NCBI RefSeq assembly: GCF_008831285.2
Contig: NC_045139.1
Location: forward strand, 19,356,392 to 19,420,391
Length of the DNA stretch: 64,000 bases
Direction: 5' to 3'
Origin: Nymphaea colorata
Lineage: Eukaryota > Streptophyta > Magnoliopsida > Nymphaeales > Nymphaeaceae
Part shown: piece after piece, positions 47,480-59,672 of the stretch
Layout: each line of letters begins with the position of its first letter
Numbering within the stretch: the stretch's first letter is position 1
Notes under the pieces: generated by a model
Database searches by the model: none
What the model was told of the DNA's origin: nothing
What the model saw: only the letters and a program-made list of their open reading frames with translations
Program-made: the position numbers and the translations under genes

Positions 47480-47669
47480 CATGGGTTTAACGAAGGGTTT
47501 CTTACTGAGATTGTTGGCATTCTGTCCACCTCCACATGGCCTTACAACTTCGTCTCTGATCTGTTCTTTTGAAAAGAAGAGAGAAAAACGAGAAGCCATT
47601 GTTGGTGAGCCAATGGAGGTGGGCAACCTGCCAAATGAGCTCTCTCAGAAACCCTTTGTAAAACCCATG
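47480..47669 (+). ncRNA. MIR394: MIR394 precursor hairpin
   Basis: The mature miR394 sequence TTGGCATTCTGTCCACCTCC is present exactly at 47514-47533 on the 5' arm. The opposite arm at 47615-47636 (GGAGGTGGGCAACCTGCCAA...) pairs with it, leaving a three-base internal loop opposite mature positions 7-9 and one G-U wobble at position 12. The stem extends far beyond the duplex: CATGGGTTT and GAAGGGTTTC at 47480-47502 pair with GAAACCCTTTG and AAACCCATG at 47648-47669. In studied plants miR394 guides AGO1 to the mRNA of the F-box protein LCR and controls shoot-meristem stem-cell competence and leaf shape. Short ORFs around it (47115-47417, 47466-47672, 47986-48309) are not protein-like and are treated as parts of the primary transcript or flanks. 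Confidence 0.96.
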
Positions 47670-50600
47670 TGATCGTTTTCCTGGCGTGGAAGGGTGAAGC
47701 CTGATCTATCCTTCCTGCAGTCCCTCTCTGCCTTCAGATCTTTTCACGGTAGGCCTGAAAGGCAAAGGAAAGAAGAAAAAGGAGCACTGGTCTTAGGGTT
47801 TATCACATTACTTCTTATCAGAAATGAATGAGCTAGTTCCTTTTTCTTGGTTTCTCTGTTTTTGTACATATTTTGTTTCTAATGACCTTGGTCACTTTCA
47901 GGCAAAAGATGAGGGAATATGTAAAGCTGCAGACAAAAATGATGAAGGGTTTGCAAGGTGACTCGGAAGCGCTGAGCATCTCACGTTGATGAGATGGGGA
48001 GGTGATATTTTTTGTAATGATGCAGTTTTCAGAAAACCAACGTTGTTCTCGGTGCGTTTTTTTCCTTTTGCTTTCCTCCTTTTAGAGGCTTATGGATCAA
48101 AAACTGAAAAAATGAACCTAGGGTTTCTAGGTATGAACTCACCGTATCTGCTGCTGTTGTTCATTTCCTCTTCCTCTTTCGGATTTGTACATGCCTTCTA
48201 CTATGCATCGGTTGTTCTATGTGTATATGTGTGCTGCAATCTGTGTCTCTGCGGCGGTTTGCTCGACGGCGATGATGATGATGATGGGTATGCTCCTGCT
48301 GAAAGATAAGGTCTAGGAGATATAGCTGGGAGATAACCCTACAAATAAATTAATGATGGTGCTGAAATTTTGAAATCTTCTTTGTTGTTGGGAACAATGG
48401 TCGTGGTAAAGTGTGTCCGCCGATGATCATGAGCATGACCCAGGTGGATTTCCAGCTATGACTGTTATTTTATTGGTCTAAACTCTGATAGCCATTAAAG
48501 CTTGCAAAAGTTCGAGCATGAGCAGCCAGTCCGGTGCTTCTTTACAGTAATGATTTTTTATCTACTACTTCATATTACATAAAATACCGTTCTGCAAATT
48601 GTTGTCTGATGGGAAGGGAGATCGATGGTACTTCTAAATTTTACTGCGAAGAGAAGAGATGCAAATTGTTGTTTGATGGGAAGGAAGATCGATGATGGTA
48701 CTTCTAAATTTCACTGCAAAGAGAAGAGATGCGAGCTTTTTACTGCATGTACTGCTAAATGCCAAAGCTTACAACATTCCTCCGGTGAAAAATAGTTGGA
48801 CAGGAAGATGTAGTCCATGTGGGAAAGATTCACCCATTGACCTCGAGCATCACTTTGTTGTTATGATTCTTGTTGCTTTATTCGAGTCGTTTTGTTCTTG
48901 AACCCAGAGTGGCACAGTTTCAACAGAGATGTAAATCAACAAAAACCGTTCTCTCTCTCTCTCTCTATCTCTCTGCATATATACATCTCTCTTACAGATG
49001 GATTGCTGGTTGAGGGACGTAGTCAACAGTGACTACCATTAATAAACAATAACTCTCTCGGCTTGAGGACGAAGCGTGAACTTAGGCCAACTCTCGTTGT
49101 TTCTGTGACTGGAAAGTGGAAGGAAGGGGAAAAGGTGGGGGAGGGAAGAGGGGAAAAGGCCGTATTTGACTTTGACATGACCAGCAGCATGTGTGCCTTC
49201 CTACCTTTACAGATACGTCTGCTCTCTGTAATCATTTACCTTCTCGCTTCCCCAAGCAAACCAAATCATGCTCATGTTTTAATTCCCATCCCCCCCTCCC
49301 AACGGCCATTATTAAAAAGTTAAGGTTCCAAATCCTCTCCCGGATCATCATAAATTACGGTGGTACAATTTTTCAAACTTCAACTTTTCAATTTCTTTCT
49401 CGATTTACTTCTGAATGACAAGCTCGTGCTGCCTTGTTGGTATTGACCAATTCATACCTACCCGTCTTCACTGCCCGTGAGTTGTTTTTCTTGGTACTGC
49501 AAAATGCACAACCATCGTTCATTTTTCTGTCTGACTCGATGTATGTTTACAATAAATGTGTTGATATGCTAATGTTGTCGACTTGAATCTTATAGTCGAA
49601 TGACCGTCCTAAATGTTTGGCCTCTGGATTATAAAATGAACACAGCTGAAGAAGATGCCACGATATGGTATCACCACGTTTGTCTTCATGTAGGTTACGT
49701 AGGTGTATCTATTGAGTATTTGAGATAACAACATAAGAAGGAGATAATGGCAGATGTAGAGATAATGCTAAATGCTACGAGTAAGAGAAGAAAAACAGTG
49801 ATGTTTTTTTTGCTGTTTAAAGAAATATATTAGTCATAATGATATGTAGGTAAGGATTGATTGATAAATTTTGTTTTGAATGTTTTTTTTTTGTTTTTTT
49901 TGTCCATGCAAAAGTTTTTTTTTGCATTAATCATGGACATTTTTTGTTACGATTAAAATGACACACAAAAAATAATACACGGCACGGCGTATATAACCAG
50001 CTTCTTTTGTTAAAATGGTAATTAGTATTGTCTTAAGGCCATGTTTTAAATTAAAAAACTAATTGGTAGATATGGCAGTTGCAATATTTTATATGACTAG
50101 CTTTTTTGGGTGAGTAGGGTGACTTGTTGATCATTTCATTAAATTTTTGTCTCGTTAGGGTATTGGGTCTGTATTTGGTGTTGTGTTTTGTTTTGCTTGT
50201 GCTAGGGTTTGCTTTTGGTGGCTTTGAGTGCCGCTTTTACTGTGTTTTAATTTGCATATTGGTGATCTTTTGTGATATAAGAAGTTGATGTCCTTTACAT
50301 TCAAAATGAAAATCATGACTGACTTTTCAATTCTTGTTCACTTGGATTGGGTAATACAACAATAAGGGCTTCAAAAGCTTATACTTTTTAATTGGGGATA
50401 TCATAGCTCGATTGTCCAGTTCAGTATATTGTAAAGCTTGAAAATTGCATCGACTTTTACGTTACCCAAAAAGCGCTTCACATATGGATCGCAGCAAATT
50501 TGAAAGTTGAGTATTATTATATAAACCGTATCGGCAGTAAATGTAAGGCAAGATTTAGAGTGCAACCTAAATCAATCAAAACTATAAATGTTAACTATAG

Positions 50601-57500: not shown

Positions 57501-59672
57501 AAGTTTTATGGTTCTCCAAATTTTGTACTATGTTTTTCTATCTGTGATGACAAATATTTTAAGTTTTTCCGATTTTTTGTCAAATCAAAAAAGTTCTAAT
57601 GTTTTAAAATTGAAAGTTAATGAACACATGCATTCATATATATATATATATATATATATATATGCATTTGTATGCAATATGATCGTGCTCAAGTATCATT
57701 CATAATATCAGCCATTTGAATTTTCTAGTCATCAGCTTCCGAGCTAAAATGAGTACATATACGTTGACAATATCCATGTGAAATTACATGCATTTTTCTA
57801 AGTTGCACACATACCAGTCCACCAGTGCAAGAAGTGACAGCACGTTCGTCCCATGATAGCGGAATGCCATCATAACGGTTAAATGAACCACCATGCCCTC
57901 TTGTGGTTCCAACACGATGATTAATGACTATGTCAGCCATGGGTCTGACATGATGACGCTGCAGCTCTCTGAGCAAAGATTTTAATTGGCTTTCTGAACC
58001 ATATGCAGAGTTGAGAGAGTATAAATTCTGTGGCAAGTAACCTGTGAATTGAATATAGGAAACAAGTGAATCTTTACAGACAGGGAGTATTATTATAGGA
58101 AGCAAAAATAATAGAGACGAGAATATAGAAACTGACCTTCCGGGGAGAAAGAATGAGTTGCTGGAGGCAACCATATGGAGGTGAATCCAGACTTCCCAAT
58201 ATCAGAAGCTTTATTTTCTAAGTTTTGCCACCAATTGTGCTTGTGTGATTCCCAATTGAAACCCTAAAAACAATATAATGAATAAACAAGGAATAGCCCA
58301 GCTTATATGTTGTATTTTATCTTGGACTTCATGCAAGCATAAGAATTCTACAAAAACAGAGCAACCCACTGTCTGCAAATTGCAAGTTAGTGAACCAGCA
58401 TGGCCACTTAGATATATGCCAGCAGTACTCAACTGCAGCAGTTGAAAGAGCAGAAATAGGGAACACTTTTGTCGGTCATTTTATTCTTACCTGGATGTGC
58501 CCTTTTTGCAATTTGTTTCAAAAAATTCTAGATATATGAAGGAACTAATTCTCAGCATAATAACAAATACACAAAAAATACCATGCTTTCATATCACCAT
58601 CTTGATAATTGCTGGAATATATGCCGATTAACCTAGAACTTATGACACTGATAAGAACAAGTACAAGAAAATGATGAAAAGACGAACTGACAGTTTCAGT
58701 TTGTGTCAGACCTCCTTTTGGACCATTGCTATTTATGACGTCCCTTGATAACTTGCATGCCATGAATGTATTGAGCCAAATGGCAGCCCAAAGTAGAGAG
58801 TTGATTGCATCATTTTATAATAGAGTATCGCTGTTAACATATGCTCAATCTGGATGCATACAAGCATGAACAATAAGTTTGTTGATTTCTTTGGACTAGG
58901 TATAAAATTGAGGTCATCTTTCAAAGTTACAAATGGAAACAGAAAGAAAATAGATAAAGCAATCGTCATGTGAATAAAATTTCTAAAACAAAGATAACAT
59001 GAATTGAAATCAAAGGACTGTTTCAGAAAGAAAGTTAACCAAAATGACATTTTCATGCATGCATTGCGATCAAACTAAAAACATGCATTCAATGACAAAA
59101 AGTTGCGCTACAAATAAAAAAGAAATAAGAAATTAACTTACAATTGGAAACTTTTCATCACAATTTATTAGTAATTTTGGTTTATCACAAGAAGAAATAA
59201 GTTGAAGCATGCACCTGCAAAAGTATGTCCCTTCCACCTCTTAAAGCTCCATCTACAAGACAAAGATCTCGGTTAAATAGACATCAAAATATCAGTATAC
59301 ATGCATCTCTCTCTCTTTCTCTCTCATATTTTTGAATATATGCAAACACACATACTCATGGATATGTGAGGTTTTTTAAATAATCAGAAAATGCTAGAAA
59401 ACTAATATTTTTTATTTCTAAACATGACATGTCCAATGATCATACATGTCAGTTTATGTGCATTAGCATTATGAAGATCCACTGTTCTTCTGCTGAGTAG
59501 AATGTTCACTTCAATGAATGGTACAATTTAAAGTGAATTATGTATATGCCTAAAAACAATCAAATAGGAGATTCCGTCTAGATAGTCAAGATTATGAAAC
59601 TAAGGCAACAGAGAAGGATTTATTGGATAAGGAGCAGTGAGGAGACAAAGAAGTACCTTCTAGAGATCCCAT
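54518..59672 (-). CDS. AMY2: Cytosolic alpha-amylase, AMY2 type (GH13)
   Basis: Eleven exons in transcript order: 59672-59657, 59252-59215, 58263-58137, 58041-57815, 57021-56876, 56784-56666, 55761-55673, 55586-55464, 55326-55291, 54906-54808, 54712-54518. The CDS is 1,215 nt, 404 residues, with all GT-AG introns in phase. The enzyme cleaves internal alpha-1,4-glucan bonds. All four GH13 signatures are present: region I ADIVINHR (residues 96-103), region [10 protein letters not shown] with nucleophile Asp181, region III VGEYWD with acid/base Glu206, and region [10 protein letters not shown] with Asp290. No signal peptide or transit peptide is seen, and the length fits plant AMY2 (about 413), so it is probably cytosolic rather than secreted or plastidic AMY3. 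The start MGSLED is the ATG that leaves the family core [12 protein letters not shown] at residue 19; an upstream leader exon is likely (about 60920-61015). The C-terminus RYAVWHKE matches the family's conserved end. Confidence 0.95.
57042..57320. repeat. Tandem duplication in an AMY2 intron, period 137 bp
   Basis: TTACCTCTTTCTGCTGACA and the following bases through CTTGGAAAATTTACTTTTAA occur at 57042 and 57179. The duplication lies in the intron just upstream of the exon carrying the catalytic nucleophile and does not touch coding sequence. Confidence 0.92.
57638..57662. repeat. AT microsatellite in AMY2 intron
   Basis: A short uninterrupted AT tract in the intron after the exon ending at 57815. 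Confidence 0.9.

Follow-up and report, generated by a model that had tools for sequence, protein, structure and literature searches.

In Arabidopsis, we take the microRNA (miRNA) gene MIR394B to be At1g76135, MIR394A to be At1g20375, and At1g76110 to be a gene with an ARID and an HMG-box domain (ARID-HMG). Across At1g76110-At1g76140, locus numbers would thus place the amylase gene AMY2 beside MIR394 and ARID-HMG beyond AMY2, which is like the order that we describe here for the water lily Nymphaea colorata, in a stretch of 64,000 nucleotides (nt) referred to below as the window (C2:19356392-19420391 of the assembly, contig NC_045139.1). In print, AMY2 is At1g76130 (PMC6426938, where an amylase of this type is also called 'AMY4'). 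The numbers around these genes are also described: At1g76120 and At1g20370 are Pus1/Pus3-type pseudouridine synthases (PUS; PMC2956550), and At1g76140 and At1g20380 are prolyl oligopeptidases (POP) that form a well-resolved pair (PMC5757927). The linkage between MIR394 and AMY2 is probably ancestral, and below we set out the evidence for this view together with the alternatives.

MIR394 and AMY2 in the window

The two genes, the parts of the hairpin and the gap between the genes have the following window coordinates.

47501-47648, + strand: MIR394 precursor hairpin (Rfam RF00688, 69.4 bits; fold z -8.7)
47514-47533, + strand: mature miR394, 20 nt, exact (pattern search, 0 mismatches)
47615-47634, + strand: star (opposite) arm of the MIR394 hairpin, which the predicted fold pairs with the mature arm
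47649-54517, no strand: intergenic gap between MIR394 and AMY2; no gene recognised among frames of at least 75 aa, by eye
54518-59672, - strand: alpha-amylase of the AMY2 type, 404 aa from 11 coding exons (spliced model; Pfam PF00128 and PF07821; PDB 1amy)

The MIR394 locus combines the exact mature sequence with a two-arm hairpin that scores above the curated Rfam cut-off of 60 bits, and F-box target genes are present in the same genome (see below). With up to three mismatches allowed, the miR394 pattern matched once in the window and not at all in 100 shuffles; the hairpin has a folding energy of -86 kcal/mol (z = -8.7), and none of 200 shuffles was equally stable. It is reasonable to assume that this gene would yield a miRNA that cuts the mRNAs of LCR-type F-box genes, its processing and the cleavage being predicted from the known family. 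Collections of viral and prokaryote sequences gave 0 matches to the exact miR394, which is what one would expect of a miRNA from plants.

The amylase model runs from an ATG at 59672 to a stop at 54518 through 10 GT-AG introns, without an internal stop or frameshift; as the reading frame and splice borders are intact, we rejected the possibility that this AMY2 is a pseudogene. Its product contains the Pfam domains Alpha-amylase (PF00128) and Alpha-amyl_C2 (PF07821), and the closest solved structure is that of barley alpha-amylase (1amy, E 1.2e-116). In the alignment with 1amy, Asp, Glu and Asp are kept at the three positions that we take to be catalytic. An NCBIfam scan of the amylase returned 14 families, none of which reached its cut-off. 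By inspection, the N-terminus has 14 residues with no hydrophobic stretch ahead of ILLQGFNW; the AMY2-type amylase apparently lacks a signal or transit peptide, and an extra upstream in-frame exon is possible. Judging by its domains, the product would be a non-targeted alpha-amylase.

MIR394 on the plus strand and AMY2 on the minus strand are convergent, with 6,869 bp between the end of the hairpin and the AMY2 stop. This bears out the first-pass annotation, which had placed an exact miR394 some 7 kb from an AMY2-type amylase in convergent orientation and had proposed looking for the adjacency in early lineages such as the water lily, in which the two genes are indeed adjacent: the match is exact over 20 nt, the hairpin belongs to the Rfam family and the gene is intact. 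Genes in the window were sought in stop-to-stop frames of at least 75 aa, judged by eye, with Pfam scans of selected frames; none was recognised by eye between MIR394 and AMY2, and the one frame from the gap that was scanned against Pfam matched 0 families. With 31,580 genes in N. colorata (PMC7015852), the chance that a given gene immediately adjoins a given MIR394 locus is P ~6e-5 (2/31,580). This estimate is applicable only because the pair had been named beforehand, from the Arabidopsis numbering.

Genome-wide searches took in the 407,766,735 bases and 783 contigs of the assembly; those with proteins were made at the level of exons, which a gene cut up by introns might escape. Mature miR394 was found at six genomic places at up to two mismatches (a reversed control pattern at 1), and among these only the window copy is exact; two of the other places are the F-box genes described below, and two are diverged hairpins on C15. 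The Rfam scan for MIR394 scored 48 of its 82,718 first-look candidates, which makes its locus counts lower bounds; the rows that it returned, at least 11, fall at 7 loci, in some cases on both strands, with at least two loci above the cut-off, namely the window copy and one at C10:17.69 Mb. The amylase gave 58 exon-level matches, of which the 8 on C2 are the window gene itself, whereas long matches at other places show 46-49% identity and some short exons 76-78%. On these identities, the window gene is the single AMY2-type gene in the genome among the matches listed, and it adjoins the sole MIR394 with an exact mature sequence.

The order continues beyond the window. The C2 flanks were inspected over 100 kb on each side, in frames above set lengths assessed by eye, and an ARID-HMG gene was found at ~19.436-19.439 Mb, approx. 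20 kb past AMY2 and on the same strand as AMY2. It accounts for one of the 6 exon-level ARID matches in the assembly.

Descent of the block and its alternatives

With a rough probability of 0.78, a short ARID-HMG - AMY2 - MIR394 block goes back to an early flowering plant and remains recognisable in both the water lily and Arabidopsis. On this reading, MIR394 and AMY2 work separately, and their adjacency reflects shared ancestry (microsynteny) rather than a joint mechanism; a functional tie between them is possible but unlikely. N. colorata is the plant genome that was compared directly, and Arabidopsis, tomato and potato entered the comparison via locus numbers; that the water-lily genes are orthologous to the Arabidopsis loci, that their linkage is ancestral and that no functional tie exists is what we infer. 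The ancestral linkage suggested by the first-pass annotation is partly supported: the adjacency in the water lily and ARID-HMG, which carries on the order, favour it; however, it does not extend to the PUS and POP flanks, for which exon-level searches gave matches together on C4 and none on C2.

Several observations weigh against descent from a common block. Of the adjacent Arabidopsis numbers, that of AMY2 is the printed one, whereas the assignments of MIR394B to At1g76135 and of ARID-HMG to At1g76110 are presumed; no mention of At1g76135 was found in the literature searched, nor were coordinates of MIR394B among the papers listed, while At1g76110 occurs once in an HMGB survey (PMC12786108). 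The placement of the window amylase in the AMY2 subfamily is putative. The domain scores of the ARID-HMG gene (ARID 83.2 bits, HMG box 47.9 bits) come from a protein spliced by eye, and between AMY2 and this gene lie, again by eye, the first part of an RRP43-like frame (RNase_PH in Pfam, under the cut-off) and Copia-type fragments. The exon-level search gave no amylase match near the C10 MIR394, and when 21 kb at this locus were compared with a 264-kb stretch of C2, a single match of 21 aa and two at the DNA level (346 and 74 bases) emerged, all of them outside recognised genes. Finally, the exon-level searches did not recover the two Arabidopsis flanks at the water-lily MIR394-AMY2 pair: POP had no match near C2:19.4 Mb (each of its 12 rows falls on C4, C9 or C3), and PUS had none on C2 (3 of 3 rows are on C4, C1 and C556).

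In Arabidopsis, the PUS and POP numbers flank the MIR394B-AMY2 pair, whereas the water-lily matches to these genes are on other chromosomes. One way to read this difference is that AMY2, MIR394 and ARID-HMG were linked ancestrally and that the Arabidopsis order PUS-AMY2-MIR394-POP is a later fusion of an AMY2-MIR394 pair with a PUS-POP pair, which the water lily would have retained on different chromosomes. Such a history is a variant of the ancestral-block explanation, not an alternative to it, and we hold it tentatively, at somewhat less than even odds. It is in keeping with the fact that the water-lily PUS exon match (C4:18305911-18306168) adjoins the POP exon matches (C4:18297807-18301470), 4.4 kb apart, with no MIR394 row beside them among the Rfam candidates scored. 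However, complementary gene loss after the Nymphaealean duplication, which is reported in PMC7015852, would leave the same arrangement if there had been only one ancestral block. Either one block came apart through duplication followed by complementary loss, or two pairs were joined toward the eudicots, and the data fit both histories. The PUS/POP pair at C4:18297807-18306168 corresponds, by locus number, to the pair that flanks MIR394A in Arabidopsis.

The two MIR394 regions of Arabidopsis bear on which copy AMY2 marks. The POP genes At1g20380/At1g76140 are given as a pair marked S (PMC1560137), which is taken here as segmental. MIR394A and MIR394B are thus located in the two halves of a segment duplication, and what the linkage to AMY2 points to is the ancestral MIR394 locus, not the B copy specifically. 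The MIR394A region (At1g20370-At1g20380) is the other half of the segment pair and presumably represents the same ancestral MIR394 locus; it is not known to keep an AMY2.

It is also conceivable that function holds these genes together, in that a shoot-meristem regulatory domain extends over MIR394 and ARID-HMG, AMY2 being an uninvolved gene enclosed by it. High activity in stem cells has been reported for the At1g76110 promoter (PMC4378910), and miR394 acts in these cells as well (PMC6376759). Nonetheless, approx. 32 kb with other insertions inside separate the water-lily MIR394 from ARID-HMG, and short-range synteny requires no function, which makes this explanation unlikely. A more specific form appears less likely still, i.e., that the block has been kept since the first flowering plants by a shared meristem regulatory landscape in which elements that control the stem-cell miRNA sit in AMY2 or in its introns; if true, it would provide a plant counterpart of animal genomic regulatory blocks. 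Least probable of all is a coincidence, in which the adjacency arose independently in the water lily and Arabidopsis via rearrangement: PUS and POP, which flank MIR394A and MIR394B by Arabidopsis numbers, do match elsewhere in the water lily, and the RopGEF, SEC14-like and VKOR genes on the MIR394 side are not among the neighbours known in Arabidopsis, but a chance neighbourhood of this kind is expected at only ~6e-5 per MIR394 locus and the third gene, ARID-HMG, carries on the presumed Arabidopsis order.

Related loci and surrounding genes

The second MIR394 above the Rfam cut-off lies at C10:17688937-17689044 on the - strand; it has one change in the mature sequence with a matching change in the opposite arm, and it is flanked by genes of the protein kinase and PPR types. 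We rejected the idea that this locus simply duplicates the C2 segment, as no gene is common to the 21 kb compared. At least six further MIR394-derived hairpins are under the cut-off (C4:13385860, C4:13403194, C6:25373329, C10:9019342, C15:1482412, and C15:1557754). These diverged hairpins resemble one another, with the 5' half of the mature sequence largely kept and the 3' half changed, and the two on C15 share 95.7% identity across ~2.8 kb. Together they may form a lineage-specific family of miRNAs that arose from MIR394. On C4, amylase has a single row, a lone exon match (78%) at C4:13261047-13261181 on the + strand, which sits 125 kb from the hairpin at C4:13385860; this exon and hairpin are perhaps a decayed sister of the AMY2-MIR394 pair on C2.

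F-box genes with a complementary miR394 site in their reading frame are present at C2:20.97 Mb (C2:20968294) and C10:10.68 Mb (C10:10683394), and we take both to be of the LCR type. The former is on the chromosome of MIR394 itself, 1.56 Mb distant. Neither place was accepted as an extra MIR394 gene, as both are F-box genes with a target site and have no Rfam match.

Upstream of MIR394, the window contains the following features.

40884-40956, - strand: tRNA-Lys (TTT), between RopGEF and MIR394
34834-38292, + strand: RopGEF, the recognised protein-coding neighbour upstream of MIR394 (PRONE domain, Pfam PF03759 on exons)
20951-21259, + strand: part of a CRAL-TRIO_2 (SEC14-like) gene (Pfam PF13716)
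12536-17478, + strand: VKOR-domain gene (two frames match Pfam PF07884; its extent and a thioredoxin part were judged by eye)
339-6013, - strand: open-frame plant gene (extent by eye; two frames scanned, no Pfam match)

With RopGEF as the recognised coding neighbour, the MIR394 side of the water-lily pair is unlike the Arabidopsis MIR394B region. The VKOR-domain gene, which we take to be probably LTO1, and the SEC14-like gene are adjacent (window 12536-21259), and their Arabidopsis counterparts are presumably the neighbours At4g35760 and At4g35750. To our eyes, the gene at 339-6013 resembles At1g01500. On C2, ~6 to 2 kb left of the window, there is a relative of C-terminal-binding protein (CtBP; best E 8e-12, Pfam under the cut-off), which we assume is probably ANGUSTIFOLIA. 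This pair would then be like At1g01500 and At1g01510, which we take to be neighbours in Arabidopsis, with the RopGEF At1g01700 presumably not far away. Two matches lie on contigs far down the list of the assembly, namely the top ARID match on C580 (33526-33780) and one of the three pseudouridine-synthase matches on C556 (29636-29797); these contigs possibly hold foreign DNA.

Comparison with other conserved neighbourhoods

Tomato appears to share part of the Arabidopsis neighbourhood. Its 'probable alpha-amylase 2' is Solyc04g082090 (PMC8446636) and one POP is Solyc04g082120 (PMC5757927), and these locus numbers indicate that AMY2 and POP are close to each other in tomato too, as they are by number in Arabidopsis. 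The potato counterpart of AMY2 is Sotub04g035480, on chromosome 4 according to its identifier (PMC5217216). The position of the tomato MIR394 on chromosome 4 was not found in the one literature search aimed at it, and '394' does not occur at the start of a word in the correction to the grape paper.

No statement of the MIR394-AMY2 adjacency was found in the literature, among the titles and abstract openings listed for the open-licence papers searched, and no paper was found, among the matches listed, that names MIR394 together with At1g76130. In the portion available of a study on MIR394 evolution (PMC6376759), neither 'amylase' nor 'chromosom' occurs. Hairpins of plant miRNAs, short and alike as they are, do not allow reliable trees, so that a fixed coding neighbour provides a practical anchor for the ancestral MIR394 copy. 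Here, the AMY2 neighbour sets the MIR394 on C2 apart from its counterpart on C10 and from the diverged hairpins, which number at least six. The adjacency should thus help to match gene copies across flowering plants; it is otherwise ordinary.

Conserved miRNA microsynteny is a well-known kind of finding, and MIR394-AMY2 is a deep and moderately interesting case of it rather than a new system. In the comparison of maize with sorghum, 136 maize miRNA genes (91%) are in syntenic regions (PMC2773440). There, as at MIR394-AMY2, coding neighbours have been kept, but over an evolutionary distance far shorter than that between the water lily and Arabidopsis.

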